The notes under the pieces are model-generated. The model did not search any database, was not told where the DNA came from, and saw only the letters and a list, made by a program, of their open reading frames with translations. Shown here in pieces: positions 1 through 24,234 of a stretch of DNA of 39,281 nucleotides. Position 1 is the stretch's first letter. Each line of letters begins with the position of its first letter. A program made the position numbers and the translations under genes. Source of the stretch: a bacterium (GTDB taxonomy: Bacteria > Calescibacteriota > Calescibacteriia > Calescibacteriales > Calescibacteriaceae); NCBI GenBank assembly GCA_030550715.1, contig JAUQOU010000017.1, forward strand, positions 1 through 39,281, read 5' to 3'.

Positions 1-1
1 A

Positions 2-1495
2 GATAGGATTATCATAGGGGATTCTGGCGTTGGCAAAACAGAAATCGCTTTGCGTGCTTCTGCTATTTGTGCCTACTCGGGAAAGCAGGTTGCATTTATT
101 GCTCCTACAACCCCCCTTGCGCTCCAGCACCACATGACTTTTAAACAGAGATTTTACGACTTTCCATTTGAAATAGCTATGCTCTCCCGCCTCACTCCCG
201 AAAAGGAAGAAAAAGAAATAATACGGAAGATCAGAGAGGGAAAAATTGATATAGTTATCGGAACTCACAAGGTTTTGAACATTCTCCCCTATTTTAAAAA
301 CCTCGGACTTCTGATAATAGACGAAGAACAGAGGTTTGGCGTATCACATAAAGAGAAGATAAATCGTATAAGAGCAACATGTGATGTGATATCGCTTACC
401 GCAACTCCTATACCGAGAACTTTGAAAATGGCTCTTTCTGGACTGAAAGATATATCTATTATAAAAACAAAACCCTTGAACAGAGGAACAATTTTCACAA
501 CTCTTATCCCAGAAAAAAATTTAAAAGATGTTATTGAGTATGAACTTGCAAGAGGGGGGCAGGTCATCTACGTCTTCCCTTTTATATCTGGACTTGAAAG
601 CATTATGTTGAAATTAGCAAAGATTTTCCCAACTTCCAGAATAAGCTCAATCCACGGTAAAATGAGACCGAAAGACATAGAAGATATAATTTTGGCTTTC
701 ATGTATGGTAAAGTAGATATTCTTGTTGCGACAAAAATTGTTGCGCTCGGACTTGATATACCTAACGCAAACACCATGGTTATTGAAAGAGCTGACCTTT
801 TCGGACTTTCAGAACTTTACCAGCTGAGGGGAAGAGTCGGAAGAGGAGATAAAGATGCGTTCTGCTATCTTGTTATTCCCGATAACATCTCTCAAAAATC
901 AAAAACAAGGATTGAATTTTTCATTGATTCTGTCAATTTTTCAGACGATAACATAGGTTTCAAGCTATCTTTGAAGGACTTGGAGATGAGAGGAGCAGGA
1001 AATATCTTTGGCAAAGAGCAAACGGGACACATATATTCTGTTGGTTTTGACTTGTATATTGAAATCTTGCAGGAAGTGATAGAGAGCATGAAAGAAAAGC
1101 TTGAACTCAAAAAAGTTGATTTTGAACCATATGTAGAGATTGACATTCCAGCTTTTATTCCCAAGTGGCTCGTAGATGATCCAATTGTGAGATTATCTTT
1201 TTACAGAGCTTTTGCTATGGCGGAAAGCGAAGATGATGTTGAAGAAATCAAAAAAGTCATTATTGAAAGATTTTCCAGAGATGAGAAGGAAATTTATCAA
1301 GAGCTTGAAAACTTCGTCAAAATCTCAAAGCTCAAAGTCCTTATGAGAAAGCTCAAAGTTTATTCCGCTATCTTCTCAAAGGATTTGAGCTATGTTGATA
1401 TAGAATCAGAGAAAGGAAAAGTGAGAATTCCTCTCCTGAACGGAATTGATGACTTTATGCAGATTATGAGAAAGTCCCTTCCAGAAAATGCGTAA
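2..1495 (+). CDS. mfd: Transcription-repair coupling factor Mfd, C-terminal part (5' truncated by window edge)
   Basis: Mfd is a superfamily-2 DNA translocase that displaces stalled RNA polymerase and recruits UvrA to transcribed-strand damage. The ORF track starts at a TTG at base 50, but the same frame is open to base 2 and encodes Walker A (GDSGVGKTE), so the gene runs off the left edge. Next come DEEQRFGV (motif II), TATPIPRTL (motif III) and GRVGRGDKDAF (motif VI). The stretch LEMRGAGNIFGKEQTGH followed by a roughly 130-residue C-terminal TRCF (D7) domain separates Mfd from RecG, which lacks that domain. It ends with TAA. No overlapping partner lies downstream; about 210 bases of AT-rich spacer follow. 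Identification is firm. The UvrB-like and RNA-polymerase-interaction domains would lie outside the window. Confidence 0.95.
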   Translation, partial: DRIIIGDSGVGKTEIALRASAICAYSGKQVAFIAPTTPLALQHHMTFKQRFYDFPFEIAMLSRLTPEKEEKEIIRKIREGKIDIVIGTHKVLNILPYFKNLGLLIIDEEQRFGVSHKEKINRIRATCDVISLTATPIPRTLKMALSGLKDISIIKTKPLNRGTIFTTLIPEKNLKDVIEYELARGGQVIYVFPFISGLESIMLKLAKIFPTSRISSIHGKMRPKDIEDIILAFMYGKVDILVATKIVALGLDIPNANTMVIERADLFGLSELYQLRGRVGRGDKDAFCYLVIPDNISQKSKTRIEFFIDSVNFSDDNIGFKLSLKDLEMRGAGNIFGKEQTGHIYSVGFDLYIEILQEVIESMKEKLELKKVDFEPYVEIDIPAFIPKWLVDDPIVRLSFYRAFAMAESEDDVEEIKKVIIERFSRDEKEIYQELENFVKISKLKVLMRKLKVYSAIFSKDLSYVDIESEKGKVRIPLLNGIDDFMQIMRKSLPENA

Positions 1496-1515
1496 TTTCA
1501 AAATCTGGTTTAAAT

Positions 1516-1634
1516 AAATGAAACAACCCAAGTTGCTAGTTTTTTTGCAAAAATTGGGAAAAATTTTTTATAATCCTTAAAAAAGCATGGGAAATCAAAT
1601 GAAGTTAGTAAAAAACTTGGGTTAAATGAAACAA
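1516..1634. repeat. Short direct and inverted repeats in the mfd/porin spacer
   Basis: The 11-mer AAATGAAACAA occurs at 1516-1526 and again at 1624-1634. The adjacent 10-mer AACCCAAGTT (1525-1534) has its exact reverse complement AACTTGGGTT at 1614-1623. The repeats bracket the candidate promoter of the downstream barrel gene, so they could be a looping operator or the ends of a small insertion. No protein-coding signal is visible in this 210-base spacer. The function is inferred only. Confidence 0.4.
1545..1574 (+). promoter_or_regulatory. Candidate sigma-70 promoter of the outer-membrane barrel gene
   Basis: TTGCAA (1545-1550) is followed 18 bases later by a perfect TATAAT (1569-1574). It lies about 130 bases before the start codon at 1707 and between the repeats listed for this spacer. 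It is a pattern match only; AT-rich DNA yields such matches by chance. Confidence 0.4.
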
Positions 1635-1706
1635 ATTTTGTTTGTTTTTAGTAAAGTAAAATAAAAAAAGCATATCTTGTAAAGAGTTGAGAGGAGGTGT
1701 TTTGGA

Positions 1707-3314
1707 ATGCTTTTTGAACTTTTGCTTTTGAACCTTTCAACCCAAAATATATATCATGGCAATCTTAAAAATTATTCGTTTCAAAACACGCAGAATCTTA
1801 TTCAATTAGTGCAAAGCGATGAAAATGAAAACGAGCAAGGTGAAGGAGAAGGTAAATCCGAAGGAGGAAACGAAGATGAAGAAAGTATAGAAAAAATTCT
1901 TGAAGAACAGCAGAATCAGGAAGAGGAAGAGGAGTTTGCTACCCCATACAACTTTGCCGAAGAGCAAGAGATTCCTGAGATGTTCAAAATAAACGGTTAT
2001 TTCAGGACAAGATTTTTCTTCTTCTCCAATCTACCGCACATTCCTGAAAAGGATGGATATTTCAATCCGAATTATGTTCAGTCAAGAGTGAGGTTAGACC
2101 CATCACTGAAAATATCACCGACTCTATCTCTTTACGGACAGGTTGATGTTCTTGACGATGTTGTATGGGGAGAGGGTATAAATGGTTTCACGCAGGGAGA
2201 AATTCTGTGCGACAGATACAATGAAGGAAGAAACTTCGCAAGCTGTTCAGGAATTTCAAGAATTTTTGCTTTGAAGAGATTTTGGGGAGAGATAGGAAGT
2301 ATCTTGACTTTGCCTATAAGCTTATCTGTTGGTCGTCAGCCGGTTCATTACGGACTTGGAATATTTTTCAACGACGGGAACGGTTTCAGAAATTTATGGG
2401 ATGACGCTCATTTTGGAAGCACAAGAGATAGAATATCGCTCGGAATAAAACCGACTGATAAATTCAAATTTGATTTAGGTTTTGACTTCCTGATGTCTGA
2501 AATAGGACAGCTAAAAGAGAACCTTGTCGACCCTTTTATTGTACCTACGATAAAAGGAGACAGAGTAGAGTTCTCTCTGTATAGCGGTGCTATATACTCA
2601 ACCTCAAAAAGTACAGAATTATACTTCGTTTTACCGTATATCAACTTCAGAATTTTGAGCGAACTTGAACTTGCGTTTGAGGGTAACCTCCTCACAGGGA
2701 AAACAAATCTTATCCCTGTTTTGGGGAACTTTTCAAGGTACTCTGTATCAGCATGGAACCTAGCAGGGCGACTGAAATGGGAAACGGGACTTATAAAACT
2801 GATTTTAGATGGCGGTTATGCGAGCGGAGACGATAATCCCAGAGATGATAAAGTAAAATCAATCCCTATACATCCCGATTACAACGCGGGATTTATTCTC
2901 TTTGAAGATGTTATGGCGAGGTATACTGCAAAGTTCGGAGGAAATATTGACAAGCTTTTTGGTAGCGGGGGAGAGTATTTTGCAACTCGTGGAGGGGTAA
3001 AAGGTGCTTGGTTTGTCATGCCTACGATCGGTCTGTTCCCGTTTGAAGCTATCGGGACTTATTTATCTGTTATGTCCGCTTTTTCTAATCAGAATACACT
3101 TATTGACCCGGTTTCTGGACAGCCGGCTTTTGGGAGAACCGCCAAAAAAGGTCTCCTTGGAGTTGAGATAGATTGGGCTTTGAAAGTTGGTATAGAGAAT
3201 TTTGAGTTTGGAACTCAGCTCGGATATTTGATTGTTGGTGATGCTCTGAAATCTGCACTACCGCAAAGTAAGAATACATTCAAAGCTCAGTTGAGGTTCA
3301 CCTATCTTTTCTGA
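1707..3314 (+). CDS. Putative outer-membrane beta-barrel (porin-like) protein with acidic N-terminal linker
   Basis: This 535-residue protein has a short hydrophobic start (MLFELLLLNL) that may be a weak signal peptide. A strongly acidic low-complexity segment, rich in Glu/Gln/Gly, follows at about residues 40-80. The rest consists of alternating amphipathic strands with many Tyr, Phe and Gly, as in porins. The last residues (RFTYLF) end in Phe, the classic BAM-recognition signature of outer-membrane barrels. An AGGAGGTG Shine-Dalgarno sits 6-7 bases before the ATG, which supports this start. I do not recognise a specific family; an alginate-export-like or generic porin is possible. It is probably monocistronic, since mfd ends 210 bases upstream. 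What I see is barrel-like composition and the terminal Phe; the location is inferred. Confidence 0.7.
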   Translation: MLFELLLLNLSTQNIYHGNLKNYSFQNTQNLIQLVQSDENENEQGEGEGKSEGGNEDEESIEKILEEQQNQEEEEEFATPYNFAEEQEIPEMFKINGYFRTRFFFFSNLPHIPEKDGYFNPNYVQSRVRLDPSLKISPTLSLYGQVDVLDDVVWGEGINGFTQGEILCDRYNEGRNFASCSGISRIFALKRFWGEIGSILTLPISLSVGRQPVHYGLGIFFNDGNGFRNLWDDAHFGSTRDRISLGIKPTDKFKFDLGFDFLMSEIGQLKENLVDPFIVPTIKGDRVEFSLYSGAIYSTSKSTELYFVLPYINFRILSELELAFEGNLLTGKTNLIPVLGNFSRYSVSAWNLAGRLKWETGLIKLILDGGYASGDDNPRDDKVKSIPIHPDYNAGFILFEDVMARYTAKFGGNIDKLFGSGGEYFATRGGVKGAWFVMPTIGLFPFEAIGTYLSVMSAFSNQNTLIDPVSGQPAFGRTAKKGLLGVEIDWALKVGIENFEFGTQLGYLIVGDALKSALPQSKNTFKAQLRFTYLF

Positions 3315-3350
3315 TTTTTCAAATATAGATTAGCAAACACTTTTTCACAG

Positions 3351-3746
3351 ATGAATAAAATCATTGAGGTTAAAAAGGTCTTTGTTTATGATGAGGATGG
3401 AATTTTCAAAGATGTTCCTCTCAAAAGGTATGAAGCAGTATTTTCTCTATTTCTCACAAGAGATGAGAAAATTTCTTTCTTGATTTACGGAAAAATTCCA
3501 GAAAAGGTAAAGAGTATTTTGGAAAATGTTGGATTCAAAACTGATTTGAGGAGGAATTTTTGTGGAGTATCCCTTTATGTTTATGTAGATGAGACAAAAA
3601 AATTGAATTTTCCGCGCGGGGATGAGATTTGCATTTTTCCTAACTCTCTTATTGTGATGAAGTCGCATCACAGAATTTTTTCTCTTCTGTGCTGTGAAAA
3701 AGAACTGTACGGAGATAAAGAGGTTCTGGATTTTTTTCTGCTCTGA
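3351..3746 (+). CDS. Hypothetical protein, 131 aa
   Basis: I do not recognise this protein. It has no signal peptide or clear membrane span. It alternates charged and hydrophobic stretches as a small cytosolic alpha/beta protein would, and has Cys-Cys near the C-terminus (LLCCEKE). It begins 36 bases after the barrel gene, so it may share its transcript. No convincing Shine-Dalgarno precedes the ATG. It converges on fliP with only two bases between the two stop codons. A minus-strand shadow ORF covers much of it, but this frame has the more protein-like composition. Confidence 0.55.
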   Translation: MNKIIEVKKVFVYDEDGIFKDVPLKRYEAVFSLFLTRDEKISFLIYGKIPEKVKSILENVGFKTDLRRNFCGVSLYVYVDETKKLNFPRGDEICIFPNSLIVMKSHHRIFSLLCCEKELYGDKEVLDFFLL

Positions 3747-15836: not shown

Positions 15837-15886
15837 CTATGGAAAGTAAAAAATTTGGAAATTGAAAGACCGAGGTGATTTTGAAC

Positions 15887-16528
15887 ATGGTTTCAGGACT
15901 TATAATGCACAAGGTCGGAATGACAAGAATATTTGGTCAAGATGGTGAAGTCATTCCTGTGACTCTGCTAAAGCTTTCTGGCGGGGTAGTGGTTGGTTAT
16001 AAAGAGGTCAAAGGAGAAAAAAGAGTTATTCTAGCATTTGATGAGTGCAAACTCAAAAACATTCCAAAACCCATAGTCGGTATCATAAAAAAAGCCGGGT
16101 TAGATAAAGGGTTCAGAACTTTAAAGGAGTTCGCTCTTTTGAATGAAAGCGAATTGCCACCGCTCGGAACAAAGATGAGCGTAGATATATTCTCTGTTGG
16201 TGAGCTTGTAGATGTTACAGGAATATCTAAGGGAAGAGGTTTTCAAGGAGTTGTCAAGAGATGGGGGTTTGGTGGCGGTCCTGCAAGCCACGGTTCTATG
16301 TCTCATAGACGCCCCGGTTCAATCGGACAAAAAACTGAACCCGGAAGGGTCTGGAAAGGTAAAAAAATGGCAGGCCATATGGGAATGCAAACTATAACAA
16401 TCAAAAACCTCCAAGTTGTTTATGTTGATAAAGAGAACGAAGTTATAGCTGTGAAGGGCTCTGTACCTGGGTGGATCGGAGGAAGAATAATAGTTAAAAA
16501 GAAAAAATCAGGAGGCAAAACGCAATGA
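15887..16528 (+). CDS. rplC: 50S ribosomal protein L3
   Basis: L3 is an early-assembly protein near the peptidyl transferase centre. The track starts at GTG 15875, but GAGGTG at 15873-15878 is a Shine-Dalgarno for the ATG at 15887 (MVSGLIMHKVGMTRIF), which I prefer; an ATG at 15905 is a further option. The diagnostic loop GRGFQGVVKRWGFGGGPASH, then GSMSHRRPGSIGQ and GKKMAGHMG, is intact. The stop overlaps the start of rplD by four bases, so the two are translationally coupled. Confidence 0.95.
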   Translation: MVSGLIMHKVGMTRIFGQDGEVIPVTLLKLSGGVVVGYKEVKGEKRVILAFDECKLKNIPKPIVGIIKKAGLDKGFRTLKEFALLNESELPPLGTKMSVDIFSVGELVDVTGISKGRGFQGVVKRWGFGGGPASHGSMSHRRPGSIGQKTEPGRVWKGKKMAGHMGMQTITIKNLQVVYVDKENEVIAVKGSVPGWIGGRIIVKKKKSGGKTQ

Positions 16529-17214
16529 GTCAGCTAAGCTCAGAAATTACAGGAAAAGAACAAAAAAATATTAATTTTGTGGTTCTTGATGTTCTTAACC
16601 CTCTTTCGGGTGAGAAAGAGGGAGAAATCCATGTTAATGAGAACTTTTTTGATAAACCCAATAAGCATGTTCTGTGGTATTATGTGAAGTGGTATTTAGC
16701 ATCTCAAAGAGCTGGAACTCATGATACAAAAACAAGGTCTGATGTTCGCGGTGGAGGAAGAAAACCTTGGCCACAAAAACACACCGGTAGAGCTCGCCAA
16801 GGGTCAATAAGAAATCCTCACTGGGTAGGTGGAGCGGTTGCACACGGACCTCACCCCAGAGATTACTCATATAAGATGAACAAAAAAGAAAAAAGAGAAG
16901 CGATGAGAAGCGCTATATCAGAAAAATTTCACGAAAAAAAACTCAGAATCGTAAGCGAAATCGTTCTCGAACAACCCAAAACAAAAAAAGCCCTTGAAAT
17001 TATAAGAAATATTGATGCCTATCCTCTCACTCTCATCACAAGCTCATCAAAAAAGAATGTCTGGCTATCTTTCAGGAATATCCCTCTTACCGATGTCATA
17101 CCAGTAGATGAAGTTAATCCATACCAGATACTCCTGCGCGACTTTGTTGTATTTGAAAAGCAAGCTATTTTGAAAATCTTGCAAAGATACGGAGTGGAGG
17201 TGTTAGAAAAATGA
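16525..17214 (+). CDS. rplD: 50S ribosomal protein L4
   Basis: L4 lines the peptide exit tunnel. In enterobacteria it also represses its own operon. The 229-residue protein has the tunnel-loop motif [20 protein letters not shown] followed by [19 protein letters not shown] and [19 protein letters not shown]. An N-terminal extension of about 20 residues, rich in Ser/Glu/Lys, precedes the conserved part. Its start overlaps rplC and its stop overlaps rplW by four bases each (ATGA type). Confidence 0.96.
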
Positions 17215-17531
17215 ATTTCCTTGCAGATGTTATTATAAGACCTGTAATTACAGAGAAAGCTACAAAACTTTCAGAGGGGAAAAAGAAAAAGTATGTTTTT
17301 ATATGCAAGTTGAGCGCTACCAAACCTCAGATAAAAAGAGCTGTTGAAAAGCTTTTCGGTGTGAAAGTTGAAAAGGTGAATACTATGATATACAGAGGAA
17401 AAATCAAAAGAAGAGGTATCTTCATCGGACACAGACCGAGTTTCAAAAAAGCCATAGTTACGCTCAAACCTGGCTATCAGATAGATATAACAAAACTAAC
17501 AGAAAAATTCATCTCTCAACCATCAAAGTGA
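17211..17531 (+). CDS. rplW: 50S ribosomal protein L23
   Basis: L23 sits at the tunnel exit and docks trigger factor and SRP. The 106-residue product shows [40 protein letters not shown] and a basic loop, as in the family. It is coupled to rplD by an ATGA overlap. A 52-base gap with a small AACTC/GAGTT hairpin (17541-17556) and a strong AAGGAGGTG precede rplB. Confidence 0.95.
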
Positions 17532-17583
17532 TAAAATAAGAACTCTGAACCGAGTTTCGTTGAAAACAAGGAGGTGAAAAGAT

Positions 17584-18462
17584 ATGGGAATAGTTAAAAT
17601 GAAGCCCATTACCCCAGGTCAAAGACACATGTCAAAATACGATTTTTCTGAGATAACGAAGGAAGAACCGGAAAAATCTCTCCTTGACAGATGGAAACAA
17701 AAAGCGGGAAGAAATAACCTTGGGAGAATAACCGCCCGACACAGAGGAGGGGGACATAAAAAAAGATACAGAATAATTGATTTTAAAAGAGATAAGTTTG
17801 ATGTACCCGGAAGAGTTGAAGCGATAGAGTATGACCCATGTAGAACCGCTCGCATAGCTCTCATTTCTTATCAAGATGGAGAAAAAAGATATATAATCTG
17901 GCCAAAGGGATTGAGTGTGGGTGATATAGTCCTTTCTTCACAGAATAAAATTGAACCACGTGTCGGTTGGACTATGCCGCTCAAATACATTCCAGATGGA
18001 ACGATTATTCACAACATAGAGCTTGTTCCAGGCAAAGGAGGTCAGCTCTGCCGTTCTGCTGGAACATGGGCGCAAGTCCTCGCAAAAATAGGAAAATATG
18101 TCCTTATAAGATTACCATCAAAAGAGGAAAGATTGGTTCATGGAGATTGTCTTGCAACAGTAGGGCAGGTTGGTCTTGAAGAACACGAACTTATATCTCT
18201 TGGCAAAGCAGGTAGGTCTCGCTGGCTCGGGAGAAGACCCCATGTGAGAGGAGTTGCTATGAACCCTGTTGACCATCCACATGGCGGAGGCGAAGGTAGG
18301 TCGCCACAAGGTAATCCTCATCCTGTCTCCCCTTGGGGATTGCTTACAAAAGGTTATAAAACCAGAAGAGGTAAAAGACCTTCTGATAAGTTCATTATAA
18401 AAGACAGAAGAGGGAAAATTCTTCAAAGGATTGAACTTCAACCATCGCAAACCAAAACCTGA
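17584..18462 (+). CDS. rplB: 50S ribosomal protein L2
   Basis: L2 is required for subunit association and peptidyl transfer. The 292-residue product includes [40 protein letters not shown] and the critical [20 protein letters not shown] region with its conserved His. About 15 extra residues lie near the N-terminus ([19 protein letters not shown]), a modest difference from typical L2. The usual next genes (rpsS, rplV, rpsC, rplP...) do not follow. A transposase remnant begins 33 bases after the stop, so the S10 operon ends here. Confidence 0.97.
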
Positions 18463-18495
18463 TACCTTCCGCAAAAACTTAGGCGATTACTCAAT

Positions 18496-19320
18496 TTATT
18501 CCACCTTCAATAATTCCAATATTTTTTCAAATAAATTCTCACTTCTATTATTATACCTGAATTCAAGCTCTTTCAAATAATACGGAAAATTTTCCTCCTT
18601 CAAGCCATGATACTTTAATAACCTTTCTTTCGCATAACTCCAAAATCCCTCTATTCCTTTCCCATCAGGTCTGGGAGCCAGGGTTTCACAATCCACTTCA
18701 AGGAATTCCATCAGACCTGATGGGAAACCATTTATATAAACCCTTCCATTAGAAACCTTTCTCCATGGTCAATCCTTAATGCCTAAATCCATACATCACC
18801 AACCCATCATAGCTTTTGAATTTATCAGTGTATATCAAACTCCCTCTCTTGACTTTCTTTATCGCCTCTTTTAGGATGGTTTGGGCTTTTACATCCTTGA
18901 CTATTTCAACTTTTACTTTTCCTCCCCTTTCCAAAATGCCAAAGACAGGTCATCCCCGCATGTCGCAGTATATATCCTTTCCCTTATCAACATAAAAAGT
19001 TTATGAGTGGTATTATAGGCAAGATTTAATTCCTTTCCCGCTCTCAGTACAGGAACTTCAAGCTCAAAAAGTTTTAAAGCTAAAATGAATTTGGAAAAGG
19101 GAATTTTCAGGTTTTCAAGAATACTTCCTTTTCTCACACTCCACTCCTGCTTACAACGAAAACATTTTAAAAAGTTCCTTCTTACTTTACCGATGTGCTT
19201 ATTCCGGCAATATGGGTAATGCATAAAGGTTTTTAGAATACCCTTCTGTCTTAGAAACTCCTCTGCTTTCAGTTCATCTGTGATTAGTTTTGAAAGTTCA
19301 ACAATTTTCATCTTTTCCAC
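18496..19320 (-). mobile_element. Defective IS1595-family transposase
   Basis: Three collinear pieces on the minus strand match IS1595-type transposases. The N-terminal piece (18913-19320) has a degraded zinc ribbon (MHYPYCRNKHIG, FLKCFRCKQEWSVRKGSILE) and KIPFSKFILALKLFE. A middle piece in another frame carries VFGILERGGKVKVEIV and IYTDKFKSYDGL, including the second catalytic Asp. The C-terminal piece (18496-18711) carries IEGFWSYAKERLLKYHG and ELEFRYNNRSE. The segment that should hold the first catalytic Asp is missing between GDDL and VFGILE, with a frameshift. A TAA follows YGFRH, with another shift before NGRVYING. A 70-bp insertion sits in the last third. The element cannot encode an active enzyme. 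No clear terminal inverted repeats of the IS itself were found. The upstream AGGTGTGGAAAAG may be its Shine-Dalgarno. Confidence 0.85.
18658..18727. repeat. 70-bp MITE-like insertion with 16-bp perfect terminal inverted repeats
   Basis: TTTCCCATCAGGTCTG (18658-18673) and CAGACCTGATGGGAAA (18712-18727) are exact reverse complements separated by 38 bases. The element lies inside the transposase. On the minus strand it is flanked by GG on both sides. Removing 70 bases plus one GG leaves AATGGAATAGAGGG, restoring the family motif NGIEGFW. This fits a non-autonomous insertion with a 2-bp target duplication, or a palindromic REP-like unit. The insertion stays in frame, adding 24 residues. Confidence 0.65.
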
Positions 19321-19340
19321 ACCTCCGTGTTTTAATTTTT

Positions 19341-19415
19341 GGTTTAGAAGTAGTACTTAGGGTTTTATTTCAGCTAATTTATCTCTTCACTTTCCCCAAG
19401 CACTACCTCTAAACC
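19341..19415. repeat. 18-bp stem, 39-base loop inverted repeat with only G-U differences
   Basis: GGTTTAGAAGTAGTACTT (19341-19358) and AAGCACTACCTCTAAACC (19398-19415) are inverted repeats differing at two positions. In minus-strand RNA both differences are G-U pairs, so all 18 positions pair. The right arm lies inside the short coding remnant 19374-19496. It may be a transposon end, a terminator-like structure or a structured RNA. Confidence 0.5.
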
Positions 19416-19496
19416 AAATTTCCTCAAATCAAATCTCTCCCTATGCCTGAGTATGTGCCATATCACATTCACAAGCTTGTGTATCAGTATTATCAT
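19374..19496 (-). pseudogene. Short transposase-like C-terminal remnant
   Basis: A 40-residue frame (MIILIHKLVNVIWHILRHRE...) begins right after an in-frame TAG and ends with TAG. The amphipathic KLVNVIWHILRHRERFD pattern recalls the C-terminal tail of IS110-type transposases, from memory and with low certainty. It lies in the same mobile scar as the IS1595 remnant and directly before the MNT/HEPN pair. No start context supports independent expression. Confidence 0.3.
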
Positions 19497-19578: not shown

Positions 19579-19887
19579 ATGAACCAAATTAAGACATTGG
19601 AGGAAATAAAGGAAACTCTAATAAGATTAAAACCATTTCTTCGTGAGAGGTATAAAGTTAAGGAGATAGGGATTTTTGGTTCTTGGGTAAGAGGGGAGCA
19701 AGGGGAAGGAAGCGATATAGATATACTTATTGAGTTTGAAAAGGACGCTAAAATAGGGCTTCTGGAATTTATCCGCATAGAAAATTTTTTAAGCGAATAT
19801 CTTGGAATTAAAGTTGACCTTGTCCTCAGGTCTGCCCTAAAACCAAATATTGGAAAGTATATTTTGGAGGAAGTGATTTATCTATGA
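19579..19887 (+). CDS. mntA: MNT-type nucleotidyltransferase antitoxin (MntA-like)
   Basis: The 102-residue minimal nucleotidyltransferase has the polymerase-beta motif [20 protein letters not shown] with the GS...DxD active site, and a later Asp in VDLVLRS. In characterised pairs MntA AMPylates a tyrosine of the partner HEPN toxin (HepT) and so neutralises it. AGGAGG lies a good distance before the ATG. Its stop overlaps the next gene's ATG (ATGA), which is typical of this operon. It lies inside a mobile scar, as toxin-antitoxin genes often do. Some MNTs act as toxin regulators only weakly, so the biochemical role is inferred from family. Confidence 0.88.
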
Positions 19888-20237
19888 GGAAAAGAGATGT
19901 AAGAGATTATTTACAAGATATACTTGATAACATGAGAAAAATAGAAAAGTTTATTTCAGGGGTAGAATATAAGGACTTTGCTAAAAATGAAGAGAAAGTT
20001 TATGCAGTGATAAGAGCAATTGAAATTATTGGAGAAGCTGTAAAGAGGATTCCAAAAGAAATAAGAGAAAAATATCCGGACATTCCATGGAAAGAAATGG
20101 CGGGTATGAGGGATAAAGTTATTCACGAATACTTTGGGGTAGATATTAAAATTGTGTGGACAACTGTAAAGGAGGAAATACCCCCCTTAAAAGAAAAAAT
20201 TGAGGTGATCATAAAAACATTAAAGGATGATAAATGA
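19884..20237 (+). CDS. hepT: HEPN (DUF86) toxin, HepT-like RNase
   Basis: The 117-residue all-helical protein has [20 protein letters not shown] and the HEPN catalytic motif [13 protein letters not shown] (R-x4-H-x-Y), in which Arg and His form the RNase site and Tyr is the AMPylation target in studied HepT proteins. It is coupled to mntA by a 4-base overlap. Key residues are all present, so it is likely functional. The pair is the only apparent intact cargo of this mobile region. Confidence 0.9.
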
Positions 20238-20463: not shown

Positions 20464-23400
20464 ATGGATATAGGGAAAGTAAGAGAGAGAGGTAAGGAGA
20501 CAGGGAAAGTTATTTTTGCGCTTTTGCTTTTCGTTTTGGTAAGTTGCTTTGCCTTTATTTTTTCTTTTTCATCAGCATTTGCTCTGGGAATTCATAGTTT
20601 TGCCGAGTTCAGAAAAATTTATGGGAAAGATTGGCTATCTTTGTGGGAAACACAGAAAAATCCAAAACTTATATTCGGAGGGAAGTTCTTCTCTCAGAAT
20701 GCAATCCCTCTCCAACCCCCGAAAAATTACAAGACCGCAAACTTAAAATCTTCATATAAATTCTCTCCCTTTTCTATCACCGCTGAAAATGATAAACTCA
20801 TAATCACAGAAATTCCTTCTGAAATTATGTTCTCACCAAACGGTGATGGTTTTTTGGACTATGCTGTATTTTCCTTTCAGGTGAGAGTATCTCATACAGA
20901 TTCATGTGGGAGTCAAGGGAATACCCCATCGTATTGCTACATATCTTGGTCTCTTGAAATAAAAAAATGTGGGAGAGATAAAGGAGTGGAGGACAGAAAG
21001 GCGGAAGATGAAATAAGGAACAGTGAAACAGATGAGTGCAGTAAGGTAAGGGAGTTTGAGAGTGAATATAAAATACCTGAATTTCTGCCGGGTGAAATTA
21101 CAAAATCAATACCCATAAAAGTTGTTTGGGATGGGAAAGACGATGAAGGTCAATTGTCAGGTGAAGGGGTGTATAAATGGGATTTTTCGGTGGAGTATAA
21201 GAGAAGAAGTGAGTTATGTTATGGGGCGTGCAAGAGCGTATGTGAGGAGAATGAAAGGATATGTGGTTGCTATGAGAGATGCGATCCGGAATGCACGAAT
21301 AAGGAAAAGAAATTAGGAGCAGCATCAGTGAAATGGGAGCTTATACTTGACCTAACACCTCCAGAGATGGTTTTTTTGGGTCCCGAACCATTTTCAGATG
21401 ATAGAAGCAAGGTTGTTATAGCATATTCAGATGAGTTTGCGGGAGTGATAACAGAGAGTTTGAGTGTTTTTATGAATGGCAGGGATATAACGGAGGAATT
21501 CCAGAAAGGTGAGACACTCGCGATTTTTGAGCCATCAGAACCACTGCCTGAGGGAGAAATATCTTTGAGATTTTCTGTTTTTGATAGGGCGGGAAACTTT
21601 ACGGTTGGTGAAGGTAGATTTAAGGTTTTTTCATCGGATACGCTGAGGAAGTTTGGAGTTGCAAGAGATTTCCTAATTTCCCTGAAAGATGTTTATGGTT
21701 TCAGAGAGGATTTGGGAGACCTTTCATTTGATTGGTGGGGGTCAAAGCACCAAGTTCTGAGTTTTTCTGAGGGGGAAACAAGTATAACACTTGACATAAC
21801 ATTTGCGAAGTTTTTGCAGAGTTATGAGGGGATACCAGTTGCTGGAGCGAACCTATCTGTGATAGTAGATAGATATGGAGACGCGAGGGGGATATATGGA
21901 AGATATTTTCCTGATATATCAGCACCACGGGAACCGGTGATAAGTCCTGAGGAAGTAACAGAAATTGCACTCAGAGAATATATGAAAGGAAGAAGAGGGA
22001 AGGGACCATGTCCGACATGTGATATTGCGCCACTTCCACCCGGCATTGTTTTATTTCACCTTATGCTCTATTCTTCTGGAAACCCGCAGATTTTGGGAAA
22101 ACCGACTTTATGGATTTATCCTGTAATGAAGGGAGATGAATGGGAATATCATTTATGCTGGTTTGTAAGGGTTGGATACATTGGGTATTTTATAGACGCA
22201 GTAGATGGTAGTGTTGTGAAGAAAGTTAGATTTATCGCAAATTTTGGTGAACAGATAATTTACGCTTCTTCCGCAACAGGATATGTTTATGAAGATGACT
22301 GGTTCAGTGATAGTAAAGAAACATCAATTGTGGGACTTCCGAGGTTAATAGCAGGTATAGGAGGGAAGTATACATGTGGATGCGGGAGGACTCTTGACCT
22401 TTCTTGCTGTGCCTTTCTATTCCCTCTGTGCCCACTTTGCTGGAAAAGGGCTTGTTCAACATGCACATATTTTATTCCTTTGAATTTGGAGAGGTCTCTT
22501 TTGGGAGATATGGGTGGGAATCAAACACTTGAAGTTCTTACGTATCTTGGGTCTGCGACACATGTAGCAAAAGGAAATATTAACTGGTTTTACAGTTATC
22601 AGGGGACATCCTCTGATGAGACATTTTTTATTTCAGGTTTGGATAGTGATTTGGAGAGGGAAGAAGCGGGATTTCGTGAGGTGAATGCATACTACCATGT
22701 AATGAGAGCGAGAGATAGATTATCTCTTTTTGGAGTAAGTCTGACCGCCCCACTTACTGTTTATGCTACTTATTATCCTTATGACATTACCACATGCAAT
22801 GGATTTTCTACACACGGGGATAATAAATATGATATAGGATTATTGAATGGAGGGGAGATGGTAGTAGAATTCCTTTTACCTTTTACTATTCCTTGTATTC
22901 CCGCTTCATGGTCGGATGATGTAATATACCATGAATTCGGCCATGTTGTGCTATTTAACTACAAGATATTTGGTTCTGATACAGGTAGAGAACCTGTAGA
23001 TGGTTTTCATGAGGGTGTAGCAGATTATATATCTTCACTTGTTGATAGTCCCTTTTCCCCAGCAGATGGGCTTGACTCCATAATAGCCGAAGGATTCTAC
23101 TGCAACAATACAACTTGTGAAACGCCAAATTATATAAGAAATCTTGAAGAAAATATGAAGCAGGTCGGGCATTTTGTAAGAGTGGAATGCACCCCCGGAA
23201 AATATTATGTATGCTATATTAGAGAAATTTCGGAGGGAGTTCAGATAAACCCACACCGATACGGATTAGCGATAGGGAATGCGCTTTTCAGGTCAATAAA
23301 TCATTTTATGAGGAAGGGGGAAGCGATGGGAGTTGGGAGATTTTGGTCATACTCCCTTTTCAATTCGGTTTTGTTTTCTGCCCTGTATAACATGGTAGGT

Positions 23401-24234
23401 CAAAATGGAACATTTGAGCTTATGAATTATGGAGAATTTATTGCAAATATGATAGCGGTAATGTTTTCGCAGGACTGGGGTGGTTTTGAGGAACTCAAAG
23501 TGATATTCCATGACGTTTTGGCGACTATATCAGCAAGCAATTTTATAGCAGTTGATATTGATTCGCTCTCGGAAGGTGTAATATCAACGATAATTGTGGG
23601 AAAGCCGTATGTTACTGTGGGGAGGTGGCTATCAAGAGGGCAACTACCTTTGCTGGAAGCAGATGATGGTATTGTTTTCAGTTCGCCACTGACGTTGGTG
23701 GGATTTTTAGGAGGTTTGACGGATGGAGATATAATGTGGCGAGTTCGTCTTGCGACATCTCCTGATTTATTCTCAACCCCATCGGGTCGGACCAGCACAA
23801 ATTACTATGAGACAGATTGGACTACACCAACGTTCAGGAGTGAGGTAAGATTTTTCTATGGTTCATCACCCGAGGTAGTAACCTATTACTTTTTTGAATA
23901 TGAGATTCCCCGAGAGGTTTTTGATAATTTGAGGTCTGGGACACCCCGAAACCAGAACGCAAAAATATACGTTTTGATAGAGGTATCAAATGGTGGGCAA
24001 GTGAAGAACTCCACACTGAGGTTGGGTGGTAGAGAGATAAATTACTACTTTTATGCTCCGGGAACTGCAGAAGTAGGAGGAGGTGGTGGGGGTAGAGGAG
24101 GATGTTCATCTTTTTTGGCAATTTCAGAAATCCTGATGGTTCTGTTATTGGTTTGTTTCTACCGATGTATGAGAAGATTATCCCATGTTCTGGAAAAATT
24201 ATTACATTATAAGATGAGAAAGAAGCTGACATGA
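20464..24234 (+). CDS. Large secreted zinc metallopeptidase with FTP/PepSY propeptide and C-terminal sorting-like tail
   Basis: The 1256-residue product has an N-terminal signal/anchor (IFALLLFVLVSCFAFIFSF). At about residues 122-245 lies an Ig-like domain with FSPNGDGFLDYAVFSF and WDGKDDEGQLSGEGVYKWDF (FlgD-Ig/gliding-type). A second Ig-like domain follows LDLTPPEMVFLGPEP. From about 400 an FTP-like propeptide contains FLQSYEGIPVAGANLSVIVD and leads into a PepSY-like segment (PEEVTEIALREYM; FIDAVDGSVVKKV). The catalytic domain has HEFGH at 823-827 and FHEGVADY with Glu850, giving a gluzincin HExxH...E site as in M4/M36 peptidases. The C-terminus is Gly-rich, then GCSS, a hydrophobic stretch and RCMRR, resembling Cys-containing C-terminal sorting signals. 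Cys-rich loops suggest disulfides or metal binding. GGGAGAAGG precedes the ATG. Exact peptidase family is uncertain. Confidence 0.82.
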   Translation: MDIGKVRERGKETGKVIFALLLFVLVSCFAFIFSFSSAFALGIHSFAEFRKIYGKDWLSLWETQKNPKLIFGGKFFSQNAIPLQPPKNYKTANLKSSYKFSPFSITAENDKLIITEIPSEIMFSPNGDGFLDYAVFSFQVRVSHTDSCGSQGNTPSYCYISWSLEIKKCGRDKGVEDRKAEDEIRNSETDECSKVREFESEYKIPEFLPGEITKSIPIKVVWDGKDDEGQLSGEGVYKWDFSVEYKRRSELCYGACKSVCEENERICGCYERCDPECTNKEKKLGAASVKWELILDLTPPEMVFLGPEPFSDDRSKVVIAYSDEFAGVITESLSVFMNGRDITEEFQKGETLAIFEPSEPLPEGEISLRFSVFDRAGNFTVGEGRFKVFSSDTLRKFGVARDFLISLKDVYGFREDLGDLSFDWWGSKHQVLSFSEGETSITLDITFAKFLQSYEGIPVAGANLSVIVDRYGDARGIYGRYFPDISAPREPVISPEEVTEIALREYMKGRRGKGPCPTCDIAPLPPGIVLFHLMLYSSGNPQILGKPTLWIYPVMKGDEWEYHLCWFVRVGYIGYFIDAVDGSVVKKVRFIANFGEQIIYASSATGYVYEDDWFSDSKETSIVGLPRLIAGIGGKYTCGCGRTLDLSCCAFLFPLCPLCWKRACSTCTYFIPLNLERSLLGDMGGNQTLEVLTYLGSATHVAKGNINWFYSYQGTSSDETFFISGLDSDLEREEAGFREVNAYYHVMRARDRLSLFGVSLTAPLTVYATYYPYDITTCNGFSTHGDNKYDIGLLNGGEMVVEFLLPFTIPCIPASWSDDVIYHEFGHVVLFNYKIFGSDTGREPVDGFHEGVADYISSLVDSPFSPADGLDSIIAEGFYCNNTTCETPNYIRNLEENMKQVGHFVRVECTPGKYYVCYIREISEGVQINPHRYGLAIGNALFRSINHFMRKGEAMGVGRFWSYSLFNSVLFSALYNMVGQNGTFELMNYGEFIANMIAVMFSQDWGGFEELKVIFHDVLATISASNFIAVDIDSLSEGVISTIIVGKPYVTVGRWLSRGQLPLLEADDGIVFSSPLTLVGFLGGLTDGDIMWRVRLATSPDLFSTPSGRTSTNYYETDWTTPTFRSEVRFFYGSSPEVVTYYFFEYEIPREVFDNLRSGTPRNQNAKIYVLIEVSNGGQVKNSTLRLGGREINYYFYAPGTAEVGGGGGGRGGCSSFLAISEILMVLLLVCFYRCMRRLSHVLEKLLHYKMRKKLT

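Follow-up and report, generated by a model that had tools for sequence, protein, structure and literature searches.

A 70-bp insertion with perfectly inverted ends in a decayed IS1595-type transposase gene

The window analyzed here, a stretch of 39,281 nucleotides taken as a whole, contains a broken transposase gene in which 70 bases with perfectly inverted ends lie in frame. This locus raises the question of whether these bases are an insertion at all and, if they are, whether they belong to a family of small mobile repeats or are the trace of a single event.

An insertion bounded by its inverted ends

The 70-bp segment spans positions 18658-18727 and reads without a stop on the minus strand, in frame with the host transposase fragment (FPSGLMEFLEVDCETLAPRPDGK). 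Its ends, TTTCCCATCAGGTCTG at 18658-18673 (plus strand) and again at 18712-18727 (minus strand), are complementary over 16 of 16 bp and lie 38 bp apart; the perfect 16-bp inverted ends described in an earlier, sequence-only reading are thus exact in their coordinates and free of mismatches. The 38-bp core (18674-18711), for which no similarity was found elsewhere, has a G+C content of 47% and the whole insert one of 49%, as against 36% in the host insertion sequence (IS). Both sides are flanked by CC (GG on the minus strand), at 18656-18657 and 18728-18729, the two copies of an apparent 2-bp duplication. With 70 bp in total, the insert holds no gene of its own.

Perfect 16-bp pairs within 150 bp were not obtained in any of 150 simulated windows (first-order Markov, same base-step composition as the real window), and pairs of at least 15 bp arose only twice. 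Across the 0.78 Mb of the same genome covered by a palindrome survey, no further pair with a loop of 8 to 120 bp is perfect over 16 bp, the other 16-bp pair there carrying a mismatch. Both strands of the insert form a hairpin fold well below shuffled sequences (folding energy z about -5). Comparison with Rfam revealed nothing notable, the one far sub-threshold match, to a microRNA, falling at another hairpin.

The 70 bases are absent from all five relatives of the host IS aligned at the DNA level, which come from the same genome (one, on contig C23), from the same genus (two), from the same family (one) and from a more remote genome within the same domain (one, intact). Four of these (own C23, G001 C40, G191 C7 and G003 C9) read through the site without additional bases, AATGG being followed directly by the next codons, and carry a single GG, so that what they lack is exactly the 70 bp and one of the two GGs of the window. 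The fifth, G001 C88, lacks the insert too, yet shows a small deletion of its own at the site. In the window, the minus-strand reading of the host runs RVYING-FPSGLMEFLEVDCETLAPRPDGKG-IEGFWSYAKERL and, with the 70 bp and one GG removed, becomes TTTATATAAATGGAATAGAGGGATTTTGG. The recovery of NGIEGFW by this excision, anticipated from the window by itself, is confirmed by the four empty sites, in which the uninterrupted motif is NGIEGFW or NGLEGFW. At the protein level, 56 transposase loci from GTDB were compared, 42 of which have a match spanning the site; more than four extra residues were found there in none of the 42, and the 24 residues that the insert adds to the host reading frame hence lie outside the protein family. 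The insertion has exact bounds, its inverted ends coincide with its junctions and its site is empty in relatives; the lack of a counterpart in five DNA relatives and 42 protein-level relatives shows that the 70 bp were truly acquired, with mirrored ends placed exactly at the junctions.

The duplication proposed for the flanks can be upheld only in part. GG is present on both sides of the insert and single in the four empty sites, as expected if it marks a target duplication, but a 2-bp repeat is a weak sign of such an event and close to chance, the probability being about 1/16 or, since the junction allows several placements, higher. The flanking GG is therefore treated here as an apparent target duplication.

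The host insertion sequence and its neighborhood

The insert sits in a decayed IS1595-type (ISXO2-like) IS at 18481-19320 on the minus strand, the transposase of which is broken by stop codons and frameshifts. PF12762 matches two stretches of this host (34.5 and 40.3 bits; cut-off 27), with a stop codon and frameshifts between them, and together with the empty sites these matches bear out the sequence-only reading of a real insertion in a broken IS1595-type gene. The intact G191 relative matches the IS1595 zinc ribbon (PF12760) as well. The right end of the host IS is the terminal repeat AGGCGATTACTCAA at 18481, with AGGTGATTGCTCAA as the corresponding end of the relative G001 C88; a matching left terminal repeat was not found by self-comparison, and the left side of the IS seems to have been lost. 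The ends of the insert differ from both AGGCGATTACTCAA and AGGTGATTGCTCAA, in agreement with the earlier view that it is unrelated to its host. No intact copy of the host IS was found in its own assembly, where two other IS-like regions, at 1-3500 and 8000-11000 of contig C23, are decayed or partial.

The host gene and its nearest paralogue in the same genome differ by about 24%. Since the arms have remained identical within a gene diverged to this extent, the insertion is suggested to be younger than the split between the two paralogues; by our own loose estimate, the 32 arm bases bound its age at roughly under 9% divergence per site. The same comparison, of perfect arms with a host copy about 24% diverged, leads us to infer that the host gene was already dead before the insertion. 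Insert and duplicated GG add 72 bp, so that the local frame is preserved, and no stop codon occurs within the insert. This open frame nonetheless means little, because just upstream of the insert, and on the same side, a stop codon and frameshifts already break the gene. One third of lengths would keep the frame by chance, and about one in three random stretches of 24 codons is open; an open in-frame insert of 24 codons is expected by chance about once in ten.

Several other features surround the host. Just upstream of the IS1595 fragment, at 19338-19418, lies a larger imperfect inverted repeat (TTTGGTTTAGAAGTAGTACTTAGGG; 25-bp arms, 88% complementary, 31 bp between them), one arm of which falls within the 3' portion of an open frame of 40 codons; neither the genome nor its family yielded a further copy. 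On the other side, genes at 15875-18462 read, from their sequence, like the ribosomal protein run L3, L4, L23 and L2. The run ends after L2, and the usual place of S19 is taken by the decayed IS followed by a nucleotidyltransferase (PF01909) and a HepT-like ribonuclease (PF01934) at 19579-20237, a MntA/HepT-type toxin-antitoxin pair. Further along, 20464-24234 encodes a 1256-residue protein with an HEFGH zinc-protease signature and a weak match to a thermolysin propeptide motif.

Further copies and the origin of the insert

Neither a second copy nor an arm pair was found in the insert's own genome (87% complete, 70 contigs), in the four genomes that make up, together with it, the five available for the phylum, or in a BLAST search of 386 genomes. 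Exact-pattern scans, from which diverged copies would escape, likewise returned no second copy from GTDB r220 contigs (exact 13+13 arm pairs) or from IMG/VR (three arm-pair patterns). Phages and plasmids yielded none either; weak DNA matches of 31 bp in a plasmid and 25 bp in a phage, each at E about 0.5, are attributed to chance. An autonomous element sharing the ends of the insert was not detected in its own genome, the four others of the phylum, the 386 genomes or the GTDB exact-arm, IMG/VR, phage and plasmid searches, and PF01797, the Y1 (RAYT-type) transposase, has no match in this genome, whereas 6 of 14 control genomes were positive. The MITE or REP family membership suggested from the sequence is not supported by these results: arm pairs in the genome and its relatives, a RAYT gene and an autonomous element with the same ends had been named as its expected signs, and none came to light. 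That reading had also named two observations that together would speak against it, of which one, the absence of other copies, was borne out and the other, the presence of the segment in related IS copies, was not. With no second copy in any collection searched, the insert is better described as the ordinary scar of a single event than as a member of a repeat family.

Single arms gave a different picture. Near-matches to one arm with up to three mismatches number 47 in the genome versus 7 in the control, and those with up to two number 17 (including the two arms themselves) versus none in the reversed control. A dispersed family was considered on this basis and rejected: the 20 stretches inspected are all unpaired and mostly unrelated coding sequence. 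Because most of them lie in long open frames and several read R-[PA]-[DE]-G-K, the excess looks like a coding-motif effect.

We give about even chances to the insert being a single-copy relic of a MITE-like element, mobilized in trans and inserted with GG duplication in an IS1595-family gene. A small element, non-autonomous and bounded by terminal inverted repeats of 16 bp, would have entered the transposase gene; since it has no gene of its own, the transposase would have acted in trans, from a source absent from the assembled genome or unrecognizable there. This enzyme would cut at the inverted ends and join them to a staggered target cut, leaving the 2-bp duplication of GG. Movement by transposition is favored because the mirrored ends coincide with the junctions and GG stands on both sides, as terminal-repeat transposition leaves them, and the difference in composition between insert and host was counted in the same direction. 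Mobile elements are a common landing place for other mobile elements, and here the insert sits inside one. Against this reading stands the lack of a second copy or arm pair in any collection searched. The main rival, filler DNA, accounts for that lack at least as well, and we consider it possible, though distinctly less probable. Here, a break in the IS would have been repaired with a short foreign or unsampled fragment, perhaps from a gene reading RPDGK, that had folded back at its own 3' end to copy 16 bases, and the joining would have relied on 2-bp microhomology. The single copy, a junction of only 2 bp and the frequency in this genome of arm-like single stretches, most of them in long open frames and several with the R-[PA]-[DE]-G-K motif, agree with such a scenario. 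It is weakened by DNA and protein searches of the genome, which yielded no donor for the inserted residues, and by the position of the inverted ends exactly at both junctions, which a fold-back need not produce.

The remaining explanations are less credible. An assembly or library artefact appears unlikely: the contig belongs to an incomplete draft (70 contigs, 87% complete) and inverted sequences are a typical product of chimeras, but the IS continues from one flank to the other across the insert with the expected spacing, and fold-back chimeras duplicate local sequence in reverse, whereas no local source for the insert was found. Less probable still is an element like the Rickettsia palindromic elements (RPEs), which insert in frame into protein-coding genes. 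The added 72 bp keep the frame and the insert is free of stops, as is often the case with RPEs (PMC10969869); there is, however, one copy, of 70 rather than about 150 bp, frame-keeping need not have been selected in a host broken just upstream by a stop and frameshifts, an open in-frame insert of 24 codons would arise by chance about once in ten, and long hairpins are not abundant in the genome (13 in 0.78 Mb versus 8 in one simulated set). We would be equally surprised if sampling had here reached, for the first time, a palindromic mobile element with an RPE-like habit of in-frame entry into coding sequence, its other copies lying in relatives yet to be sampled or in the 13% of the genome that the assembly lacks. 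Least credible of all is a REP unit moved by a RAYT, to which the small, hairpin-forming insert (z about -5) would be suited, given a genome with no Y1 match, an insert without repeat copies and a site within a gene rather than between genes.

The result carries limited weight: a clean small insertion is documented in a decayed IS, and a single mirrored insert is little evidence for a repeat family. Should further copies emerge in relatives, they would reveal a small mobile element, as yet undescribed, in a lineage of which little has been sampled.

Comparison with known systems

The host gene has the DDE domain of the ISXO2/IS1595 type (PF12762), and the ends of the host IS, of the AGGTGATT type, are unrelated to those of the insert. 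REP sequences with their RAYT (Y1) resemble the insert as short hairpins and differ from it in that it is unrepeated and within a gene and its genome has no Y1 match. With RPEs, which are about 150 bp long, occur in many copies in ten families and lie inside working genes (PMC10969869), it shares a palindromic structure and a position in a coding region where the reading frame stays open, but it is 70 bp long, single and located in a dead gene. Prokaryotic MITEs range from 50 to 500 bp (review PMC10969869), and those of type II resemble their autonomous element in the ends only. The insert is like them in its small size, its terminal inverted repeats at the junctions (16 of 16 bp), its apparent short target duplication and its lack of a transposase gene, and unlike them in that neither a second copy nor an autonomous parent element with the same ends was found. 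For this last reason it is placed in no named MITE, REP or RPE family, yet in its anatomy it is MITE-like.
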